Shown here piece after piece: positions 46,078-63,524 of a stretch of DNA of 64,000 bases. The position numbers were made by a program, and so were the translations under genes. The stretch comes from Tardiphaga robiniae (GTDB lineage: Bacteria; Pseudomonadota; Alphaproteobacteria; Rhizobiales; Xanthobacteraceae), in NCBI RefSeq assembly GCF_013359755.1, contig NZ_JABMCJ010000086.1, forward strand, positions 1 through 64,000, written 5' to 3'. Every line of letters starts with the position of its first letter. Within the stretch, counting starts at the first letter, position 1. The notes beneath the pieces are model-generated. The model did not search any database. It saw nothing but the letters and a program-made list of their open reading frames with translations, and had not been told where the DNA came from.

Positions 46078-46743
46078 ATGACCCATCCCTTCTTCGGCCC
46101 CATCCTCCGCCTGCGCGTGACGCCCGATGAGCCCGAGGCGCCGGATGCCTTTGTGGGCGGCCCACGCGTGCGCGGCTCCAGGCGGCCGCATGGGGATGCC
46201 AAATGCGCGCAGGTGCGCCGCCTGATCGAGACGACGGTGCTGACCTATGGCGAGATCGCGAAGCAAACCGGCGTCGGCCGCGCCTCGATCTGCCGCTGGA
46301 CCCGCGACGGCGGCTGGAAGCGCCCGCTATTCGCGCCGCGCGCCACCGACACCGTGCCCTCCGCCCGCGCCTCGCAGAAGCTTAAGCTGCGCAAACTCGC
46401 CGAGCGGCTCCACGCGCTGGCAGAGCGCGCCGTGCGCGCGCTGGAAACGCAGCCCGATGTCGACATCGACCGCCTGATGCAGGCGCTGCAGGTGGTGAAG
46501 ATGGCGCGGCTGGAGGCGATGGGCCGCCGGCGCCCGCGTCGCCACATCGACATGCCCGCGCGCACCGGCCGCGAGATGATGGAGCGCGACGCTGCGATCC
46601 GCACCGCGCTGAAGGAAATGCGCCGCGGCGGCGTCGATGTGACACAGATTCCGGACGACGCGATGGCGCTGCTGGAAGCCGCGCATACGCCGCCGGAGCG
46701 GGATCACCCGGCGCTGCGGCCAAGGGGAAGCCGGCGGAGATAA
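46078..46743 (+). CDS. Helix-turn-helix protein, paralogue 1
   Basis: The 221-residue protein has a helix-turn-helix near residues 45-75 (TVLTYGEIAKQTGVGRASIC, RWTRDGGWKRP), similar to the N-terminal domain of phage terminase small subunits or transposase-like DNA-binding proteins. A long basic helical segment follows (LKLRKLAERLHALAERAVRAL, QVVKMARLEAMGRRRPRRH). The C-terminus AHTPPERDHPALRPRG is shared almost exactly with the paralogue at 57912-58613. The function is unknown; DNA binding is inferred. The predicted leaderless promoter fixes ATG 46078. The N-terminal 40 residues differ between the two copies. Confidence 0.7.
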   Translation: MTHPFFGPILRLRVTPDEPEAPDAFVGGPRVRGSRRPHGDAKCAQVRRLIETTVLTYGEIAKQTGVGRASICRWTRDGGWKRPLFAPRATDTVPSARASQKLKLRKLAERLHALAERAVRALETQPDVDIDRLMQALQVVKMARLEAMGRRRPRRHIDMPARTGREMMERDAAIRTALKEMRRGGVDVTQIPDDAMALLEAAHTPPERDHPALRPRGSRRR

Positions 46744-47978: not shown

Positions 47979-50900
47979 ATGCCCGAGGCAGGCGGTCCAA
48001 CAGCGCAGTCTGGAATTCTCTACCAGAACAGCATAGCTGCACTCTACCTCGGACGCCTGCTCGATCTGCGGCCCACCCCCTCTGGAAAACGGATTAGCTC
48101 CATACGACTAGAAGCCCCTGAGCAGGTAGATGACATCGTCATAAATTATGCCAGCGGCTCACGGCTTCTAATTCAAGCCAAAGAATCTATCTCGACTTCA
48201 AGCACTCCGTGGAAGCAGTTTTGGCTCGACTTGAAAGAGCAACAACTCGCGATCGAATGTCGATTGGATGAGTACCGACTCATCGTCGGCACATTCAGCA
48301 AAGAAATCGACACTCTTCGTGAAGCATGTGATCGCTCCCAAGGAAAAGACAATCATTCCGAATGGCTGGACGCTCTAAACAAAGATCAAAAGCACATCGT
48401 TGATCAGATCGCAACTACGCTGGCCAGCACGGTCGAAGTTGTATTCCTCACTATACGGCGCCTTTCCATCGAATTCTTGCCTTTCTCTCACATCGAATCC
48501 ACCGGAATTCGCGACTGGATTCCAGACTCGTCCAGCAGTCGCGAAACGCTATTTGCGATTCTTCGGGATGCATGCGGCGGAGCCGCTAGAGTTCGAGGCA
48601 CATTCACCGCCCGCGACTTTGCATCGAAGATATTTAGCATTCATGACATCAAGCTTCTCGGTTCCCCTGGAGACGGTCTCGCAAACTATCTCAGATCAAT
48701 CGGCACACAGTTCAACGCAATCACCGTACCCGGCACATCTCTCAACTCAAATGAGATGGAATTGCTAGTATGGCCACACGTGACCTCGATCGCCCGAACA
48801 ATTCACACCGACTTTGAGGAAGAATCTCCATTCACACCTCGACCGACCATTGACAGCTTTTTTGATCTCAAGAAATTTCCGCACGAGACTGCATCTTTTG
48901 GGCTTATCGTCGCTGGCGCAGGATTTGGAAAATCGACCTTCCTCCGCGCCATTGCCCGTCACCTAGCTACAAACACATCTCACGTCCCCGCATACATTAC
49001 GTCAGACACGCTTCAAAACTATCAAGACCTCGATCAATATCTGTCCACTGCGACCAACCAACACTTCCGATCGCAAATTGACTGGGCTGTACTGTGCGAG
49101 CAAGGCCGTGCAATCCTACTCATTGACGGACTAGACGAGCTAAGCGACGAAGGACGCTCCAAGGTTTCGACAATGATCGCCCGTGCTCACGCGATATATC
49201 CGTCATTGCCAATCTTAGTCGCAGCACGAGATAGCGCGGTCATCGCACTTCCCACCAGCTTTCAGTACTATCGTCTTGAGCGCCTTGATGTTCAGCAACT
49301 ATCAGAACTATTGAAAAGATACCTCTCGACAAGAGGCAACTCAGACCACTCGTCTCTAATCTCTCAAGTCATTCACAAACCAGAGCTTGTTGCACTATGC
49401 AGCATCCCGCTTTTCGCTGCCATGCTTGTAGCAACTCTACCGCCGAATGGAAACATTCCTGAAACTCGCACAGAACTTCTTGAGCGATATCTTGATATCG
49501 TCCTTTCGCCGCACCGTCACAAGAACACCGAGCGCCCTCGGCTGCCGTTAAGTACTCTCAGGACTGGCGCGGAACTACTTGCCAGAGCAGGCCTGGACAG
49601 CAATCAAATTTCCATCCCTGAAACAAGAGCCCGCGACAAGCTGAACACCAAGTTTGGCGACATTCGCGGCGACTCGTGCGTTGAGGAACTCCTACGCTGC
49701 GGACTGCTCGTCAAACGTGGCTTTCGCGTAGGCTTCGCAATCGCCACCGTTCAGGAGTACTTGGCAGCTTGCGACCTTGCCAAAGACCAGAATCCCGACC
49801 CGGACGCGTGGTTTCACAGCACAACTCGACGACCATGGGCACAGGCGGTCCAATTTGCTATTGAGAAACTCACTAATGTGAACGATCTCCTTTCTCGGCA
49901 GCTCGCAAGACCTGACGACTATTACAAAACAACAACCCGGCTGATTGCTCGAGGCATTGTCAATGGCGCTCACGTATCCCAAGAACTACGGAAAAGTGTA
50001 GCTAGCAATCTTATAAGAAGCTGGTTCTCATCAACCTATGAAGTCAACCACAGCATCGGAATACTGATCAACGAAGGCTTCTCAACGCCACCATCGACCG
50101 AGCTGATCGAAGCACTTAACACTAAAGCCGCCAAACGATACGGCGGAATGCGAATTCTGGAAAAAATCGACGACGCAGATTTGATCCTAGATTGCTTTAA
50201 AGGCCTGATCGACGAAGCTGACATTCGCGACCTATGGCACCCTGTTTGGCTACGAGCCTCGACACGACATGCGGCAGAGATGATCTCGCTCCTAGTCGAG
50301 CGCATATCTAGGCCGAATGATGACAGCTTCAACGTCAGCGTTGTTGCGGACATTATGTATCGAATGCGAACCGCTCAGGACGTAGATTGGGCGAGCATCG
50401 CAAAAAGTGAACGTCACCCTCTAACGATAAGAGCAGCGGCGCACTTCGGTGCGAAGAACGAAAATTCCGAGAGCGGAAAGAAAGATATTCAAGAACTAGT
50501 TCGACAAGCGAGACCACAGAATCTTTGGAAATCGTTCTCAGAAGCACTTCTTTCGACCACATGGTGGCGGGAACACGTCAAGGGCATACTGGCTACAACG
50601 CGCCTTAAGAAGACTACATCTGGCGAACTTGATTGTTACCTCAACATAGACCCCCAAAAACCAGCAGCACAAGATTTTCTCAGAGAATTAAAAACTCTTG
50701 TCTCTAGTGGTGAAATGCATGCCACCTCCCGAATGGCGCCCCTCACAATATTAGCGGCAAATGGCGACGTCGAAGCGGGAGAGTTGGCAACAGAGCTTTT
50801 GTCGTCTGCAAATGATAGAGCGATCTTTCAGTGGTTAGAGATCAGTGCCTTTCTAGAAGATGGACTGCAAGCAGCAGGGTTGCGCAAACTCAAAGAGCGC

Positions 50901-51512
50901 TCGATGCCAAAAACAAACGAGTTGCGACTTCTCCGCGACATAAATAACCGCATAACGTTTGCGCCATCTGGCCCTCAGCGGGTCCTAAATGGACGAGGTC
51001 CATTCAGGACAACGTCGGATCGGAAGGCTTCCCGTGAAGTTGCTATGATTTGGACCCTGGATGTATTGGAGCGATTACCACTGGAAGGCGTTGAACGCGC
51101 AGAACTCATCGTCGCCAGCATTGAAAACAAATATGGAGTAAGCTCATCTGTACTTATTTCGATGTTGCGAGAATATTTGGATAAAGCGATAGCTATTGAC
51201 CGCGAGAACTGGAGCTGGATTATTGGCGGCATTCACGCCCTTGCCAGTCAAAACGAACGAATTGGCGCTAATATTCTATGGTCGATCCTCAACAAGGGCA
51301 TCGATTTACCGACTTGGTCGATCCTCGAATTGATCTGGGCCGAGGAGGGGCCGACGTGTTGCGATCGCTTGATAGAGGTATTTTCGAGGAACGAGGAAAA
51401 GCGATGGGAGATACTAAGTTTGCTTGAAAAAGCTGCCCCCATCCACGGGCTTTCAGTACGTGTTCGTGGCGCGGACCTATTAGTAGAGGGCCTCGATAAA
51501 CTTGGGAAATAA
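47979..51512 (+). CDS. NACHT/STAND NTPase with PD-(D/E)XK-like N-terminus, antiphage-type
   Basis: This 1177-residue protein has three parts. The N-terminal ~250 residues look like a Cap4/DUF4297-type nuclease: SGILYQNSIAALYLGRLLD, then EQVDDIVINY (D51/D52) and LLIQAKES (Q66-A-K68), the D...Q-x-K core. The central NTPase has Walker A VAGAGFGKST (about 311-320), Walker B ILLIDGLDELSD (about 379-390) with the NACHT-type GLDE, and an AARDS sensor. The C-terminal ~650 residues are helical, repeat-like. Such STAND proteins (Avs, bNACHT) sense phage components and activate the nuclease. GGGAGG precedes ATG 47979. Composition is A+T-richer than flanking genes. It is alone in its transcription unit. 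Confidence 0.82.
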   Translation: MPEAGGPTAQSGILYQNSIAALYLGRLLDLRPTPSGKRISSIRLEAPEQVDDIVINYASGSRLLIQAKESISTSSTPWKQFWLDLKEQQLAIECRLDEYRLIVGTFSKEIDTLREACDRSQGKDNHSEWLDALNKDQKHIVDQIATTLASTVEVVFLTIRRLSIEFLPFSHIESTGIRDWIPDSSSSRETLFAILRDACGGAARVRGTFTARDFASKIFSIHDIKLLGSPGDGLANYLRSIGTQFNAITVPGTSLNSNEMELLVWPHVTSIARTIHTDFEEESPFTPRPTIDSFFDLKKFPHETASFGLIVAGAGFGKSTFLRAIARHLATNTSHVPAYITSDTLQNYQDLDQYLSTATNQHFRSQIDWAVLCEQGRAILLIDGLDELSDEGRSKVSTMIARAHAIYPSLPILVAARDSAVIALPTSFQYYRLERLDVQQLSELLKRYLSTRGNSDHSSLISQVIHKPELVALCSIPLFAAMLVATLPPNGNIPETRTELLERYLDIVLSPHRHKNTERPRLPLSTLRTGAELLARAGLDSNQISIPETRARDKLNTKFGDIRGDSCVEELLRCGLLVKRGFRVGFAIATVQEYLAACDLAKDQNPDPDAWFHSTTRRPWAQAVQFAIEKLTNVNDLLSRQLARPDDYYKTTTRLIARGIVNGAHVSQELRKSVASNLIRSWFSSTYEVNHSIGILINEGFSTPPSTELIEALNTKAAKRYGGMRILEKIDDADLILDCFKGLIDEADIRDLWHPVWLRASTRHAAEMISLLVERISRPNDDSFNVSVVADIMYRMRTAQDVDWASIAKSERHPLTIRAAAHFGAKNENSESGKKDIQELVRQARPQNLWKSFSEALLSTTWWREHVKGILATTRLKKTTSGELDCYLNIDPQKPAAQDFLRELKTLVSSGEMHATSRMAPLTILAANGDVEAGELATELLSSANDRAIFQWLEISAFLEDGLQAAGLRKLKERSMPKTNELRLLRDINNRITFAPSGPQRVLNGRGPFRTTSDRKASREVAMIWTLDVLERLPLEGVERAELIVASIENKYGVSSSVLISMLREYLDKAIAIDRENWSWIIGGIHALASQNERIGANILWSILNKGIDLPTWSILELIWAEEGPTCCDRLIEVFSRNEEKRWEILSLLEKAAPIHGLSVRVRGADLLVEGLDKLGK

Positions 51513-57911: not shown

Positions 57912-58613
57912 ATGCGCTATCCTGCCTATCCTCTGTTTCCCTCCAACATCCGCGTCATCGACTCATCCGCGGACGCGGTGACACGCGTTCGGGTCGATGC
58001 CGATCCCGGACCGCCGCCCGTTCCGGGCGGCCGCCCGAAGGGCTGCAAGAAGCTGCACACCAACGCCACGGTTGCCGCGGCGCGCCGCCTGATCGAGGAG
58101 ACGACGCTGACCTACAAGCAGATCGCGGCGAGGACCGGCGCAACCCATGGCACTGTCGGGCGCTGGGCCCGCGAGGGCGGCTGGCAGCGTCACCCCTTTG
58201 CGCCCGTGGCCAGCGACTCGCTGCGCGGCGCCCGCGCCGGCCGCCGGCTCAAATTACGGGTGCTGCGCGAGAAGCTGCAGGCGCTGGCCGAGCGCTGCGT
58301 CACCGAGCTGTGGAACAGCCCCACGGTCGATCTCGACCGGCTGATCCAGGCCATGCAGGTGGTGAAGATGGCGCGGCTGGAAGCCATGGGCAACCGCCGC
58401 CCGCGCCGCCACCCCGATGCGCCGGCGCGCACCGGCCAGGACTGGATCGACCGCGACACCGCGATCCGCTCGGCACTGAAGGAGATGCGCCGCGGCGGCG
58501 TGAATATCGACCGCATCCCTGATGAAGCGATGGCGCTACTAGAGGACGCGCATACGCCGCCGGAGCGCGACCACCCGGCGCTGCGGCCGAGGGGGCCGCG
58601 GCGGAAGGTCTAG
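57912..58613 (+). CDS. Helix-turn-helix protein, paralogue 2
   Basis: The 233-residue protein shares a core with the protein at 46078-46743: TLTYKQIAARTGATHGTVGRW with REGGW in the helix-turn-helix, LKLRVLREKLQALAERCVTEL, QVVKMARLEAMGNRRPRRH, RDTAIRSALKEMRRGGV, and the C-terminal AHTPPERDHPALRPRG. The first 60 residues (YPAYPLFPSNIRVID...) are unrelated. AAAGGAG precedes ATG 57912. The protein is probably a DNA-binding protein of unknown target. It lies immediately upstream of the convergent 1272-residue NTPase gene. Confidence 0.7.
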   Translation: MRYPAYPLFPSNIRVIDSSADAVTRVRVDADPGPPPVPGGRPKGCKKLHTNATVAAARRLIEETTLTYKQIAARTGATHGTVGRWAREGGWQRHPFAPVASDSLRGARAGRRLKLRVLREKLQALAERCVTELWNSPTVDLDRLIQAMQVVKMARLEAMGNRRPRRHPDAPARTGQDWIDRDTAIRSALKEMRRGGVNIDRIPDEAMALLEDAHTPPERDHPALRPRGPRRKV

Positions 58614-58708: not shown

Positions 58709-61700
58709 CTATTCAAATCGCTCATCTCGCTCACTATCGCGCTCGTTTTCCCATCTCCGAATACGCACGATTTCGTCCACAAGTTCAGGGCGCTTCTGCG
58801 TCACATAGTCTGCGAAGGACGTATTTTCCAACTCCTTAAGACGATCAAGCAAAGGCAGCCGGGACTCGACGATGGCTGCTCGCGACCCGGACCAAATTTT
58901 CGGAGAAAAGCGCTCCACAAACGTCGCTAGGACCACCAACGGATCAGGCGCTCTCTTGAACATCTCCACTGCAAGAGGCGTCCAATCAACCACCCCATCA
59001 GTGGACGTTGCGTGATAGGATATAACGCGGGAGATCGACCGGTAACGTTCCAAGGGTTTCTCGTCACACCATCGAAGCATTTCGTCGGCGGTCACCTCAT
59101 CCAACGCGTTTCTTCGACGCTCGGAAGGACTGTCGAAATAATCGACGCCAAGATCGGAATCGTCATCCTCACTCACACCTCCGAAAAATACGTCGAGCGC
59201 CACTCGCGACTGAGACGCGAAGATGCTGCTAAGTAGATTAGGGTGGTTGAATGCCCGGAATGTGTAGTCTGCCAAGCCGCTTCTAATCCGCTCACAAAGC
59301 GACTTCGCAGCATTAACCCCTTCTGCTCCGCGCAAACAGATACCTGCAATCTTACCCAAACGGTGATCATGCATATTATCGCTCACACTGAAGATTGGCG
59401 ATGACAGCAATGAGCGGCCGGCCACGATCAACTCCTTCGGATACTCCTTCTTCTGATCTGCATCCGAATGGAAGCGCATCGACAAAATATCAACAGCGAC
59501 CCCGTACCCGTTTTCCTGACCAGCAAGTATTGTAATTATGTCTCGCAGGTCCTCGCCACTAATCGCGTCTGAAGAGCGTCCCCAACCGAGAGAGTGGAAC
59601 GCGGAAGCTCGCGCTTTCCCGATAGCCGCAGCCCGCTTTAGCCGACCGGCTCCAGCAATAGATATTGGAATCGACGTTTGCAAAATTGGGAACCATGCGC
59701 CAAGCACGTCGTGCTCGACGGCCGCTTCTAGAATAGCCTCACAGACATCTCGATCCATTGTCGAAAGCCCGACCAAAAAGCCGATCAAAGCTCCGATGTT
59801 TCGCCTGCCGTCCTCGGCCTCCGCCAGAGCATGCGTAAGCTGCGCCCATACCATACAAAAATCGATTGAGGCGAGCGCCAAGCCTTTTCCAAAGGAAGGC
59901 AATCGCCCCCCATCACCAATTACCAAAGAAGGCAACAGCGAAGCGAATAGCGCTCCGTCGCGGCAAACGACCTTTCCAAGTTCCTCAGCTGCGGCGTTAG
60001 CTCTCTCGTAAGCCGCCATCGGTTTTTCCGCGTCAGCCTCGTCTCTACCTTCCGTGTCGGCATAGTCGAGGGCACCCCAACTGGGAGTCAGAACGACCGC
60101 TCGCACCTGCTCGGTCACATTTTTAGGGCATAATCGGCGCTCGAGATTTCGAAGACGCTGGATTGCTGCAGCATCCGCATCATCCAGGGAGCGCGAAAGA
60201 ACGATTCTGACAGCTATCCATCCTTCCTGCCAATAGTCATCCTTAGCCACCTCCTCCGCAATCGCCTCAAACTGATCTTGAACTTCGGGACCGAAGAACC
60301 AGAGCCCCTGAATCGCCTGAGCAACACTCGATCGAATTGCTTGCATCAGCTGGTCATCGCTCTCGGCGATCTTTCGGATCAGCTTCAGCGTTGAAACAAA
60401 CCAATGCGCTCTTTCTTCGCGTGAGCTCGGCCAGTATCCATAATCGCGCACCCACGCACCAAACTCGAATGACTGCGTTGCCGAGAAATGGTCACCCTGA
60501 AGAAGAGTTCGTAGAAGCGCGACGCCTAGCGATCGATTTCGAGACTCGCTCGAATGAAGGAGGCGATCAACAACTACCAACCGCTGCTCAATGTTAGCAT
60601 GAGACCCCGACAAGAATAATTGGAAAAGACCTTTAAGAGCATCCTCGGCAGGATGGTTTCGACTATCCGGTGCCTCTGCGATCGCTAGCGAGATCATTGC
60701 TACGGCGCATCTATCAAACAACAGCGCATCATATGCGATTGAATGAAGCACGGAGGCGATCCTGCGTCGCATCAGTTGCAGGTTCGACAACTCGTCAGTG
60801 ACAGACTCAGACAGCTCCCTCTCTATTGCCGCAAGGGTCGCCTCAGGCGAAACGGGCGCGATATTGTTAAACATCGCCATGCCAAATTCATTCAACCTGC
60901 CGACATTGGCAAGCAAACCATCTTTGGCCAACCATTTTTCGACAATACGTCTAGCTTCATCACTCTCGTGGAGGTACCCAAGCCTCCGACTGAATGACTT
61001 TAACAGGCGCTCGGTATCGAAATATTTTTCAATCTCGTCGAGATGAATTTCTCGAAGCGCCATTTTGGCAAGCCTGTTGGAGATTGCGTGGGGCAAAACC
61101 GCCCGCCAAACACTGCGGCGCTGAACAAGGTCACGCCCCTTAAGCTGCGAAACCTTTGCGAATACCTGTTGAGTGCTCATTCCGACCAAAGCAGCAATCT
61201 TGGGCAACTCTGCTTCATCACCGCTAAGCGCCTCGCCTTGAAAGGAGTAGAGCAAGGCGCACGCTTTAGCGACCGTGAGTAGATTGTCGTCACGCTCCTG
61301 TCGTTGCTGAAAAAGTCGCTTGAAGAGCTCTTCGTCCTGTAGACCGGCAACGGATTCGTGACGTTCCAGCGTATTGGCCAATGCCAACGCAACGCGCGCG
61401 TTGCCGCCGGAAAATTCCGCGATCTTGTCGACATCTAGCGGCGTCATTGCCGAAAATCGACGCGCAATCAATTTGGAAACGAGATCGACCGAAGACGGCT
61501 CAAGACGGAAAACTTCCGTTCCTTCAGGCTCATCTTCTTGAACATCATATTCAACTGTGACAGCGCTTATTAGGCTATCAGAAGTTCGACAGACCTCCGT
61601 GATGCGACGATGAAGCTCGGGCGCACAATTGTCGACCACCACAATTGCGCGTGTTCGTGAAGCGATCAGGTCAGAAATCATCCCAGTCGGCTGCGGCGAT

Positions 61701-62527
61701 GGATTGTCATTCATATCGGTGTAAATCACCAATGACGGGCTGAGCGCACCCTTTCCGACGCGGTCATCAAACAACGCTTGCACAAAACGCGTTTTTCCTA
61801 CGCCGGATAGCCCTGCAAGTCGGACAACGCTGCGAACATCTCGCAAGGCGTTCCGGACTCGATCAACGCCTTGCGCTACATCGCATCCTGCGTTGTCAGC
61901 AACGCCGGCGTGCAACCGCGCTTTGTCATCAAGGAGATATTCGTCTTGAATGCCATCAGGCGAGACCGCCCACGAACTGTATGGCTGCCACCCGGACATA
62001 CCGCGGCCAATTTTCTGGCGAACCCACACAATGAGTCCAACGTGTGCCCGGGTCCACGTTGCCAGGCGACTACGGTCGTAGAAATCAAGTTGTATCTCCG
62101 CATTCCGAACGTCGTCGGCCACGGCAGATCGCATAATATTTACCCGGTCGGCCAAGGCTGTATCTGAAGTATCGGAGCCCGAACTGGCGATGATGTAAGC
62201 CCCACCTTCAGCGATAAGATCGCTAATCGAAACTCGAAGGCTACCGGACGGTCGCATCTCGGGAGTGATTAAACCCGGCGTGAGATCAGACTTCTTGACC
62301 TGAAAGCCAATACTGGCTCTAGGGAGAAACCCGCCTGGAGCCACACCGTCTTGGATTCTGACGCGGACATCGATTCCTCCATCGGTAGCGTTCTGATTCC
62401 CTCCCCATGTGACGGCCGACGTTGACAGACCATGCGCGCGTAATTCGGCTTCACACAGCAGACCAACAAGGCTGCGCAGGTCAGCGTCGGTTAGTTCGGC
62501 GATATGGCTTCCTTCAATTTCGAACAT
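58709..62527 (-). CDS. Giant STAND-type NTPase with restriction-endonuclease-like N-terminus
   Basis: This protein has 1272 residues when started at ATG 62527. Its N-terminus resembles a PD-(D/E)XK nuclease: TWGGNQNATDGGIDVRVRI (about 40-58) and SIGFQVKKSDL (Q76-V-K78), the D...Q-x-K core. The NTPase region has Walker A LAGLSGVGKTRF (about 237-248) and a Walker B-like strand AIVVVDNCAPEL (about 294-305), followed by a winged-helix-like stretch. The remaining ~800 residues are helical and repeat-like, with no recognised domain. This plan is that of Avs-type antiphage sensors, though it is not closely similar to the protein at 47979. Codon composition is A+T-richer than neighbours. An open extension of 19 codons upstream is rejected because a promoter lies there. 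Confidence 0.8.
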   Translation of the reverse strand: MFEIEGSHIAELTDADLRSLVGLLCEAELRAHGLSTSAVTWGGNQNATDGGIDVRVRIQDGVAPGGFLPRASIGFQVKKSDLTPGLITPEMRPSGSLRVSISDLIAEGGAYIIASSGSDTSDTALADRVNIMRSAVADDVRNAEIQLDFYDRSRLATWTRAHVGLIVWVRQKIGRGMSGWQPYSSWAVSPDGIQDEYLLDDKARLHAGVADNAGCDVAQGVDRVRNALRDVRSVVRLAGLSGVGKTRFVQALFDDRVGKGALSPSLVIYTDMNDNPSPQPTGMISDLIASRTRAIVVVDNCAPELHRRITEVCRTSDSLISAVTVEYDVQEDEPEGTEVFRLEPSSVDLVSKLIARRFSAMTPLDVDKIAEFSGGNARVALALANTLERHESVAGLQDEELFKRLFQQRQERDDNLLTVAKACALLYSFQGEALSGDEAELPKIAALVGMSTQQVFAKVSQLKGRDLVQRRSVWRAVLPHAISNRLAKMALREIHLDEIEKYFDTERLLKSFSRRLGYLHESDEARRIVEKWLAKDGLLANVGRLNEFGMAMFNNIAPVSPEATLAAIERELSESVTDELSNLQLMRRRIASVLHSIAYDALLFDRCAVAMISLAIAEAPDSRNHPAEDALKGLFQLFLSGSHANIEQRLVVVDRLLHSSESRNRSLGVALLRTLLQGDHFSATQSFEFGAWVRDYGYWPSSREERAHWFVSTLKLIRKIAESDDQLMQAIRSSVAQAIQGLWFFGPEVQDQFEAIAEEVAKDDYWQEGWIAVRIVLSRSLDDADAAAIQRLRNLERRLCPKNVTEQVRAVVLTPSWGALDYADTEGRDEADAEKPMAAYERANAAAEELGKVVCRDGALFASLLPSLVIGDGGRLPSFGKGLALASIDFCMVWAQLTHALAEAEDGRRNIGALIGFLVGLSTMDRDVCEAILEAAVEHDVLGAWFPILQTSIPISIAGAGRLKRAAAIGKARASAFHSLGWGRSSDAISGEDLRDIITILAGQENGYGVAVDILSMRFHSDADQKKEYPKELIVAGRSLLSSPIFSVSDNMHDHRLGKIAGICLRGAEGVNAAKSLCERIRSGLADYTFRAFNHPNLLSSIFASQSRVALDVFFGGVSEDDDSDLGVDYFDSPSERRRNALDEVTADEMLRWCDEKPLERYRSISRVISYHATSTDGVVDWTPLAVEMFKRAPDPLVVLATFVERFSPKIWSGSRAAIVESRLPLLDRLKELENTSFADYVTQKRPELVDEIVRIRRWENERDSERDERFE

Positions 62528-62705: not shown

Positions 62706-63524
62706 CTAAGTCCCAAGCAGCTTGTTCAGCTCACCGCCCTTCGCGCCCTGCGCAAAGGCTGTAAACGTCCCCTTCCCCGCAATCTCCTGCGCCGCGCCCA
62801 TGAACCCCGCCCAGGCCACGCGCGCGAGCGCGCCGCCGACGCTGATGCGGCGGACGCCGAGGCTGGCGAGATGCGCCACGGTCATGGTCGGCTGCACGGT
62901 CAGGACATTGAGCGGCTTGCCGCCGATCGCCTTCACCAGCGTGGTGATCTCATCGTCGGTGGCGACGCCCGGCGCATAGAGGCAATCGGCGCCGGCCTCC
63001 GCAAAGGCGACGAGGCGCGCCGTGGTCTTCTTGAGGTCGCGCTCGCCATGCAGAAAACCTTCGCAGCGGGCGACCAGCATGACAGCGGGGTCGACGCTGT
63101 CGATAGCGGCGCGGGCGGCCTTGATGCGCTCGACCGCGAGCTTGTCGTCATAGAGCGGCTTGTCGGACTTTCCGGTGGAGTTCTCGATGGAGAGGCCACT
63201 GATGCCGCTCTTCACCGCGCGGGCGACATTGGCGGCGACGCCTGCGGGGTCATCGGCAAAGCCGGCCTCGAAGTCGGCATTGACAGGCAGATCGGTGGCG
63301 GCCGAGAGCAGCGCGAGATGTTCGATGACATCGTCGGCGGTGACCTTGTTGTCGGGGCGGCCGGTGGACCAGGCATAGCCGGCTGACGTCGAGGCCAGCG
63401 CCTTGAAGCCGAGATGCGCGAGATAGCGGGCGCTGCCGACATCCCAGGGATTGGGCAGCACGAAACAGCCGGTCTCGTGGAGCTTGCGGAAGTTGGCGCG
63501 CTTCTCGGCGGTGGAGATGGTCAT
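62706..63524 (-). CDS. Isocitrate lyase/PEP mutase family protein
   Basis: The 272-residue TIM-barrel enzyme has LHETGCFVLPNPWDVGSARY near the N-terminus and ALASTSAGYAWSTGRPDN. Metal-binding residues of the superfamily lie in PVNADFEAGFADDP (D...D), GISGLSIENSTG, and the strand AVMLVARCEGFLHGE. It lacks the KKCGH catalytic motif of true isocitrate lyases and is nearer to the oxaloacetate decarboxylase/2-methylisocitrate-like group. It probably cleaves a C-C bond of a small 2-oxo or hydroxy acid. Its substrate is unknown and no propionate genes are nearby. Confidence 0.85.
   Translation of the reverse strand: MTISTAEKRANFRKLHETGCFVLPNPWDVGSARYLAHLGFKALASTSAGYAWSTGRPDNKVTADDVIEHLALLSAATDLPVNADFEAGFADDPAGVAANVARAVKSGISGLSIENSTGKSDKPLYDDKLAVERIKAARAAIDSVDPAVMLVARCEGFLHGERDLKKTTARLVAFAEAGADCLYAPGVATDDEITTLVKAIGGKPLNVLTVQPTMTVAHLASLGVRRISVGGALARVAWAGFMGAAQEIAGKGTFTAFAQGAKGGELNKLLGT

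Follow-up and report, generated by a model that had tools for sequence, protein, structure and literature searches.

The 64,000-nucleotide stretch of Tardiphaga robiniae DNA analysed here (contig NZ_JABMCJ010000086.1; hereafter the window) carries on its minus strand, at positions 58709-62527, a real open reading frame (ORF) of 1272 amino acids whose product, the window protein, belongs to the known PD-Lambda-4_A family. We put at roughly 70% the probability that this gene encodes a stand-alone PD-Lambda-4_A-type receptor working as a switch of the STAND (signal transduction ATPases with numerous domains) type, a reading derived from sequence comparison. In the proposed mechanism the C-terminal ~770 residues would detect a cue of infection, most likely a phage protein by analogy with the Avs proteins (PMC12931631, in the part consulted); the nucleoside triphosphate (NTP)-binding and winged-helix core (residues ~170-500) would change state and assemble, and the N-terminal PD-(D/E)xK-like domain, thereby switched on, would cut DNA, stopping infection with or without survival of the cell. 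We infer the ligand class, the assembly, the nuclease target and the activity of the window copy; the type of nuclease motif would fit DNA cutting. As a ligand-triggered STAND receptor predicts, relatives of the protein have kept the core and exchanged both ends.

Family assignment and conserved motifs

In PADLOC, residues 1-1272 match positions 3-1283 of the PD-Lambda-4_A model (PDLC03991) with 984.6 bits and E 1.8e-296, a full-length match that overturns the suggestion, made in an earlier reading of the DNA letters (the original prediction), of a possibly undescribed STAND subfamily. PADLOC models a further gene, PD-Lambda-4_B (PDLC03992; B), as a component of the system beside the present one (A). 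The ORF starts with ATG, as in relatives, an alternative GTG 19 codons upstream being possible. All the motifs named in the original prediction, to which we add the strand, are present in the ORF: TDGGIDVRV (residues 48-56), GFQVKK (74-79), GLSGVGKTR (239-247) and IVVVDNC (295-301). Their conservation was followed in an alignment of 48 sequences. The parts of the gene, with domain borders set by eye, are as follows.

58709..62527, minus strand: PD-Lambda-4_A family gene, 1272 aa, stop included (ORF; PADLOC PDLC03991)
62033..62527, minus strand: putative N-terminal effector, residues 1-165, PD-(D/E)xK-like nuclease with E28, D49, D53, Q76 and K78 (alignment; weak Avs2 hhalign match)
62369..62383, minus strand: DGGID motif, residues 49-53 (sequence, alignment)
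62294..62302, minus strand: QVK motif, residues 76-78 (sequence, alignment)
61493..61867, minus strand: nucleotide-binding domain spanning residues 221-345 (sub-cut-off Pfam AAA_16, which 11 of 22 family members also match at E <= 0.01)
61787..61813, minus strand: Walker A GLSGVGKTR, residues 239-247 (sequence, alignment)
61625..61642, minus strand: Walker B VVVDNC, residues 296-301 (D299 and C301 in 48/48 rows, N300 in 45/48)
61028..61492, minus strand: presumed helical and winged-helix region, residues 346-500 (conserved alignment blocks; domain assignment inferred)
Within that presumed region, minus strand: GNAR, residues 375-378, and WRAVLPHAI, residues 474-482 (alignment blocks)
58712..61027, minus strand: presumed C-terminal sensor, residues 501-1272, with a conserved RFE end (no Pfam domain; lower conservation; cassette exchange in relatives)

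Both Walker motifs, features of STAND NTPases, are kept across the 48 rows: G239, G244, K245, R247, D299 and C301 are invariant, and T246 is found in 46 rows, with serine in the other 2. Within the effector, D49, G51, D53, Q76 and K78 are kept in 46 rows, the two exceptions being the hydrolase-type rows described below, and E28 in 42. This conservation is beyond chance, and the N-terminal half is better conserved than the C-terminal part. Degeneracy of the Walker motifs, which the original prediction had named as a possible objection to itself, is not seen, although the residue after the Walker B aspartate is asparagine (N300) rather than an acid in 45 of the 48 rows. With this asparagine in place of the second Walker B acid, nucleotide binding appears likely and fast hydrolysis doubtful; the part of PMC12931631 consulted describes a working Avs5 whose Walker B has a single acid.

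Two further features that had been noticed in the letters hold on closer analysis. Relative to its neighbourhood the gene is A+T-rich (GC 0.538; GC at third codon positions, GC3, 0.546, against 0.83-0.87 in five neighbouring genes), and in the long C-terminus of ~770 residues, described as free of recognisable motifs, Pfam detects no domain at E 1 or lower. Other profile searches with the window protein gave little: NCBIfam and PDB sequences yielded no match up to E 1, and Pfam RsgA_GTPase reached E 0.25. A profile of a 19-row alignment of residues 1-505 found only weak P-loop matches in the PDB, the best being ClpC (E 0.0023) and the plant nucleotide-binding leucine-rich-repeat (NLR) protein Roq1 lying among them (E 0.03), and the corresponding C-terminal alignment returned nothing convincing (best E 0.019). 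The presumed helical and winged-helix region after the NTPase shows, by eye, conserved blocks in the alignment.

Exchange of the presumed effector and detector parts in relatives

Two plasmid-borne relatives, L016 from Lelliottia and L017 from Enterobacter roggenkampii, keep the NTPase and the C-terminus and begin with an alpha/beta hydrolase that carries GHSLG. They match the window protein at ~29% identity over ~1100 aa (E 1e-134 and 2e-137), and their hydrolase part matches Pfam DUF676 (4.3e-6 and 8.7e-6, respectively) and, in L016, Abhydrolase_6 (9.5e-7). A Vibrio halioticoli record matches residues 16-1341 of the hydrolase version at 35.5%, and with L016 as query some records match the hydrolase part only, among them ones annotated NB-ARC, AAA-like and 'ABC-three component'. 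In the tree the hydrolase pair is placed among nuclease-type rows, which also occur at the outgroup; the tree comes from a quick search, which flags long branches and unusual composition and leaves the exact placement unsure; a change from nuclease to hydrolase would be the shorter story. A further PD-Lambda-4_A relative (L022, 538-5259) has an extra HTH_3 domain ahead of the nuclease.

At the other end, the enterobacterial branch supplied 23 A sequences (six from viral contigs of unknown host), which were compared in DNA as an N-part (codons 1-490) and a C-part (from codon 520). In 44 of the 253 pairs the N-part is at least 85% and the C-part less than 78% identical, the actual values being 91-94% and 63-69%, and Fisher tests of the two parts at fourfold-degenerate sites give p between 1.5e-11 and 5.5e-23. 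Synonymous divergence (dS), measured in four such pairs, rises from 0.20-0.29 to 1.45-2.46, some segments being saturated. These 44 pairs are not independent and come down to three C-types, namely L021 with seven others; L071, L082, L083 and L091; and L072. The reverse pattern, a C-part of at least 85% with an N-part below 80%, occurs in no pair among the 253. Seven comparison pairs divide into four without a step at fourfold sites (L089-L098, L015-L092, L073-L021 and L088-L089) and three with smaller differences in the same sense (L074-L097, L064-L021 and L083-L071).

The change point lies between codons ~498 and 543. The B genes of the L021 and L083 groups are ~70% identical over 420 bases, and that of L072, the third C-type, is 87.9-93.8% identical to those of the L083 group and 66.7-70.3% to those of the L021 group; because the B of L072 is close to the L083 group, the divergent block between L072 and L083 is bounded on both sides. 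The silent sites count against selection on the protein alone, and the plain reading is that the C-part has probably been exchanged by recombination in the enterobacterial branch. Among 5426 E. coli genomes, DNA near the L083 N-part is found in 141 and near its C-part in 143, counted separately, and DNA near the L021 C-part in none (0/5426); a more distant E. coli type exists (L084), with two such rows among the 15 matches listed. On these counts the exchange shows up between genomes of species rank, and none could be demonstrated within E. coli. Identity between the window gene and L009 likewise drops around this change point, from 76% to 53%, but saturation of the silent sites there makes exchange indistinguishable from faster change.

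These exchanges also bear on a different account of the gene, as a restriction-like enzyme in which the NTPase would drive DNA translocation or gating and the long C-terminus would read DNA directly, in the manner of McrBC-like and other type IV enzymes. A nuclease motif does lie beside an NTPase, and restriction enzymes, too, exchange their recognition parts as cassettes. However, a serine-esterase-like hydrolase replaces the nuclease while NTPase and C-terminus stay, and in Pfam neither a helicase nor a GTPase family exceeds its cut-off in the window protein or the family members, so that we regard this account as unlikely.

Partner gene, distribution and genomic setting

Matches to A occur in 3 of 18 genus genomes, 9 of 385 in a class sample and 9 of 398 in a phylum sample (the window genome, G000, being included in each count), and in 21 of 295 genomes of the family of G358, taken as Enterobacteriaceae, the last count including some fragments. 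Of 5426 E. coli genomes, 180 carry DNA resembling the A gene of G358. There are 44 A matches among 72,556 plasmid records, none in 50,697 phage records and 17 loci in viral contigs; a scan of viral contigs with the hydrolase version confirmed no relative.

B is much more restricted. G000 has no match to PD-Lambda-4_B at E <= 0.001, none of nine ORFs across 44.8-63.8 kb matched B in PADLOC, and the model found B in 0 of 5 genomes of the first genome set (G000 included), in 2 of 22 genomes or records (G358, beside A; G354, a 32-residue piece on another contig) and in 10 of 25, nine of these lying in G358's family with B adjoining A and the tenth (G496) having A and B on separate contigs. Of the nine adjoining copies, the four in G1028, G358, G881 and G863 span the model in an uninterrupted frame; the remaining five are partial, in two pieces or with a stop. 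Half of the 18 genomes of G358's family scanned thus have B beside A and half lack it; three further family genomes with A fragments were left out of that scan (G354 was scanned separately). Among the 17 viral-contig loci BLASTP found B in one (L091, nearly identical to E. coli A). In the 48-sequence tree all ten rows labelled with B fall in one shallow clade of 14, whose other four rows (L066, L067, L068 and L084) have no B; the label of L070 rests on a 66-residue remnant, and G932 and G1028, with B present and A broken or split, are not in the tree. Among the sequences tested, B adjoining A was found only in enterobacterial-type ones. The RFE that ends A (58712-58720, minus strand) is conserved also in rows without B (F in 47/48 rows, E in 45/48). 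Equating B with the CoiA-domain protein of PMC9519451, as far as that source was consulted, was a guess and was dropped; two B copies have no Pfam match up to E 1.

It could be argued that A needs a partner, PD-Lambda-4_B or an analogue elsewhere, and that the lone copy is inactive or has an unknown partner, in line with the PADLOC model and with the nine family genomes in which the two genes adjoin. This appears quite improbable, since B is found neither in G000 nor beside A outside G358's family in the genomes and records tested, A stays open there with its motifs in many cases, nine of the 18 family genomes lack B, and only four of nine B copies are whole in one frame.

The gene lies between two conserved flanks.

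57912..58613, plus strand: gene for a helix-turn-helix (HTH) protein, a conserved flank bordering the variable interval (16/18 genus genomes)
62706..63524, minus strand: conserved flank gene, putative PEP-mutase/isocitrate-lyase-like by eye (16/18 genus genomes)

In 15 genus relatives these bound an interval of differing content, 0.4 to ~11 kb long, whose contents were scanned in part, one ORF from each of 10 relatives. Six of the 10 ORFs matched PADLOC at E <= 0.001: a type VI defence reverse transcriptase (4.1e-70), type I (1127 bits), type IIG (2.7e-53) and type III-like (2.9e-20) restriction enzymes, and, more weakly, LmuB-like (1.3e-11) and DpdB-like (5.7e-6) proteins; the other four had no match at that threshold. 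This is a small defence-bearing variable interval with the HTH gene at its edge, and in the window genome the PD-Lambda-4_A-type gene is alone in it. The co-occurrence of the two genes that the original prediction had raised is not borne out, and the HTH gene is ruled out as a partner, being in 16 of the 18 genus genomes against 3 of 18 with an A relative. A 61% paralogue of the HTH gene lies ~11 kb away at 46102-46740 (plus strand), and a second HTH copy ~11-14 kb from the first is found also in G001, G002, G005 and G016. Fragments of the flank gene, copied from its 3' part, lie within the interval in L038, L039, L040 and L044, and are perhaps traces of how inserts arrive.

Several observations weigh against the stand-alone receptor. 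Both swaps, an expectation for STAND proteins rather than a defining feature, are seen in relatives and not in the window gene's own branch. AAA_16 in the window protein (E 0.0046) is below its Pfam cut-off. B, a PADLOC component, is missing, and activity of A alone is predicted only. The Avs2 profile comparison discussed below gave low probabilities (8.7% and 14%), no NTPase alignment and no alignment to the C-terminal region. The locus can also decay, because G014, a genus relative with the same gene at the same place, has a copy shortened by ~620 residues (~299-921 missing), in one 647-aa open frame (L045, 5796-7739). Nevertheless, a foreign gene in decay with no present function, for which the odd composition and the G014 copy might speak, is very hard to reconcile with the open 1272-codon frame, the intact motifs and the 61% identity to the full-length relative L009, with the N-terminal half more conserved.

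Comparison with known systems

The order of parts in the window protein, with a nuclease-like start, an NTPase and a long C-terminus, is that of Avs (AVAST) proteins, and Avs1-4 follow a three-part STAND plan with nuclease effectors (PMC12931631, as far as consulted). Comparison with an Avs2 profile (six rows, two of which pass the family cut-off) gave one short alignment with the nuclease motif in register (hhalign E 0.0019, probability 14%), and the C-terminus of Avs2 is unlike that of the window protein. The Avs2 model NF041813, which stands beside other Avs models in NCBIfam, has no match to the window protein up to E 1; this and the low-probability alignment led us to reject Avs2 membership. 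PADLOC also holds Avs models, and none is among the PADLOC matches of the protein. The call of a second Avs-like sensor is supported in its order of parts, in a family other than that of the protein at 47979 and in its different C-terminal region; no Avs family matched in NCBIfam (up to E 1) or PADLOC. Because the Avs2 comparison is weak support for kinship, we claim only a probable likeness in how the protein works, not Avs membership. Avs2-like genes lie ~4 and ~7 kb from PD-Lambda-4_A on contig 1 of G881 (3510795-3521343) and of G807 (1192556-1206573), respectively.

The window has a second low-GC giant gene at 47979-51512 (plus strand; GC3 0.509; Pfam NACHT 2.8e-9), whose N-terminus weakly matches PADLOC LmuA (2.4e-8) and HamA (0.0012), and which matches NCBIfam HyoA (7e-6) far below cut-off. 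As had been proposed, the two proteins have an architecture in common, each being large and having a nuclease-like N-terminus ahead of a central P-loop NTPase, and lack evident sequence likeness: NACHT is found in the 47979 protein only, and with neither BLASTP (best E 0.91) nor a profile against that single sequence (E 0.11) giving similarity, a common origin judged by sequence was rejected.

The closest known system is PD-lambda-4, an E. coli defence system. PMC10952713, in the part consulted, calls it a P-loop NTPase and credits it to Vassallo et al. 2022 (PMC9519451), where, in the portion seen, every candidate system was cloned and plating of the selecting phage was reduced. The string 'PD-lambda-4' is absent from the main text of PMC9519451, as far as accessible, and the system is presumably treated in the figures and supplements. 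Its name also occurs in PMC13268207. The open-access literature searched, in its accessible parts, carries little beyond the 'P-loop NTPase' label; one paper (PMC12724215, consulted in part) was set aside as concerning an unrelated ATPase. Read as a stand-alone STAND receptor whose effector and detector are naturally swapped, PD-lambda-4 gains a testable mechanism, and natural mosaics, in which one core carries different detectors, could be used to find out what phage molecule is recognised by each detector. We would give about even odds to a broader view, in which PD-lambda-4_A is at root a one-gene NLR-like family with both ends exchangeable: weapon domains, nuclease or hydrolase, would belong to a pool on which other STAND proteins also draw, detector cassettes of ~770 residues would be recombined at about codons 498-543 round a kept switch core, B would be a late enterobacterial addition, often broken or lost, and the window copy would be the original B-less form. 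The window protein differs from enterobacterial PD-lambda-4 in that no B gene was found in its genome and in lying on another branch of the tree, beside L009 and the group of L002, L011, L052, L087 and L095. It nevertheless matches protein A over its whole length, and the full-length A proteins of the enterobacterial branch are ~30-33% identical to it, with motifs common to both.

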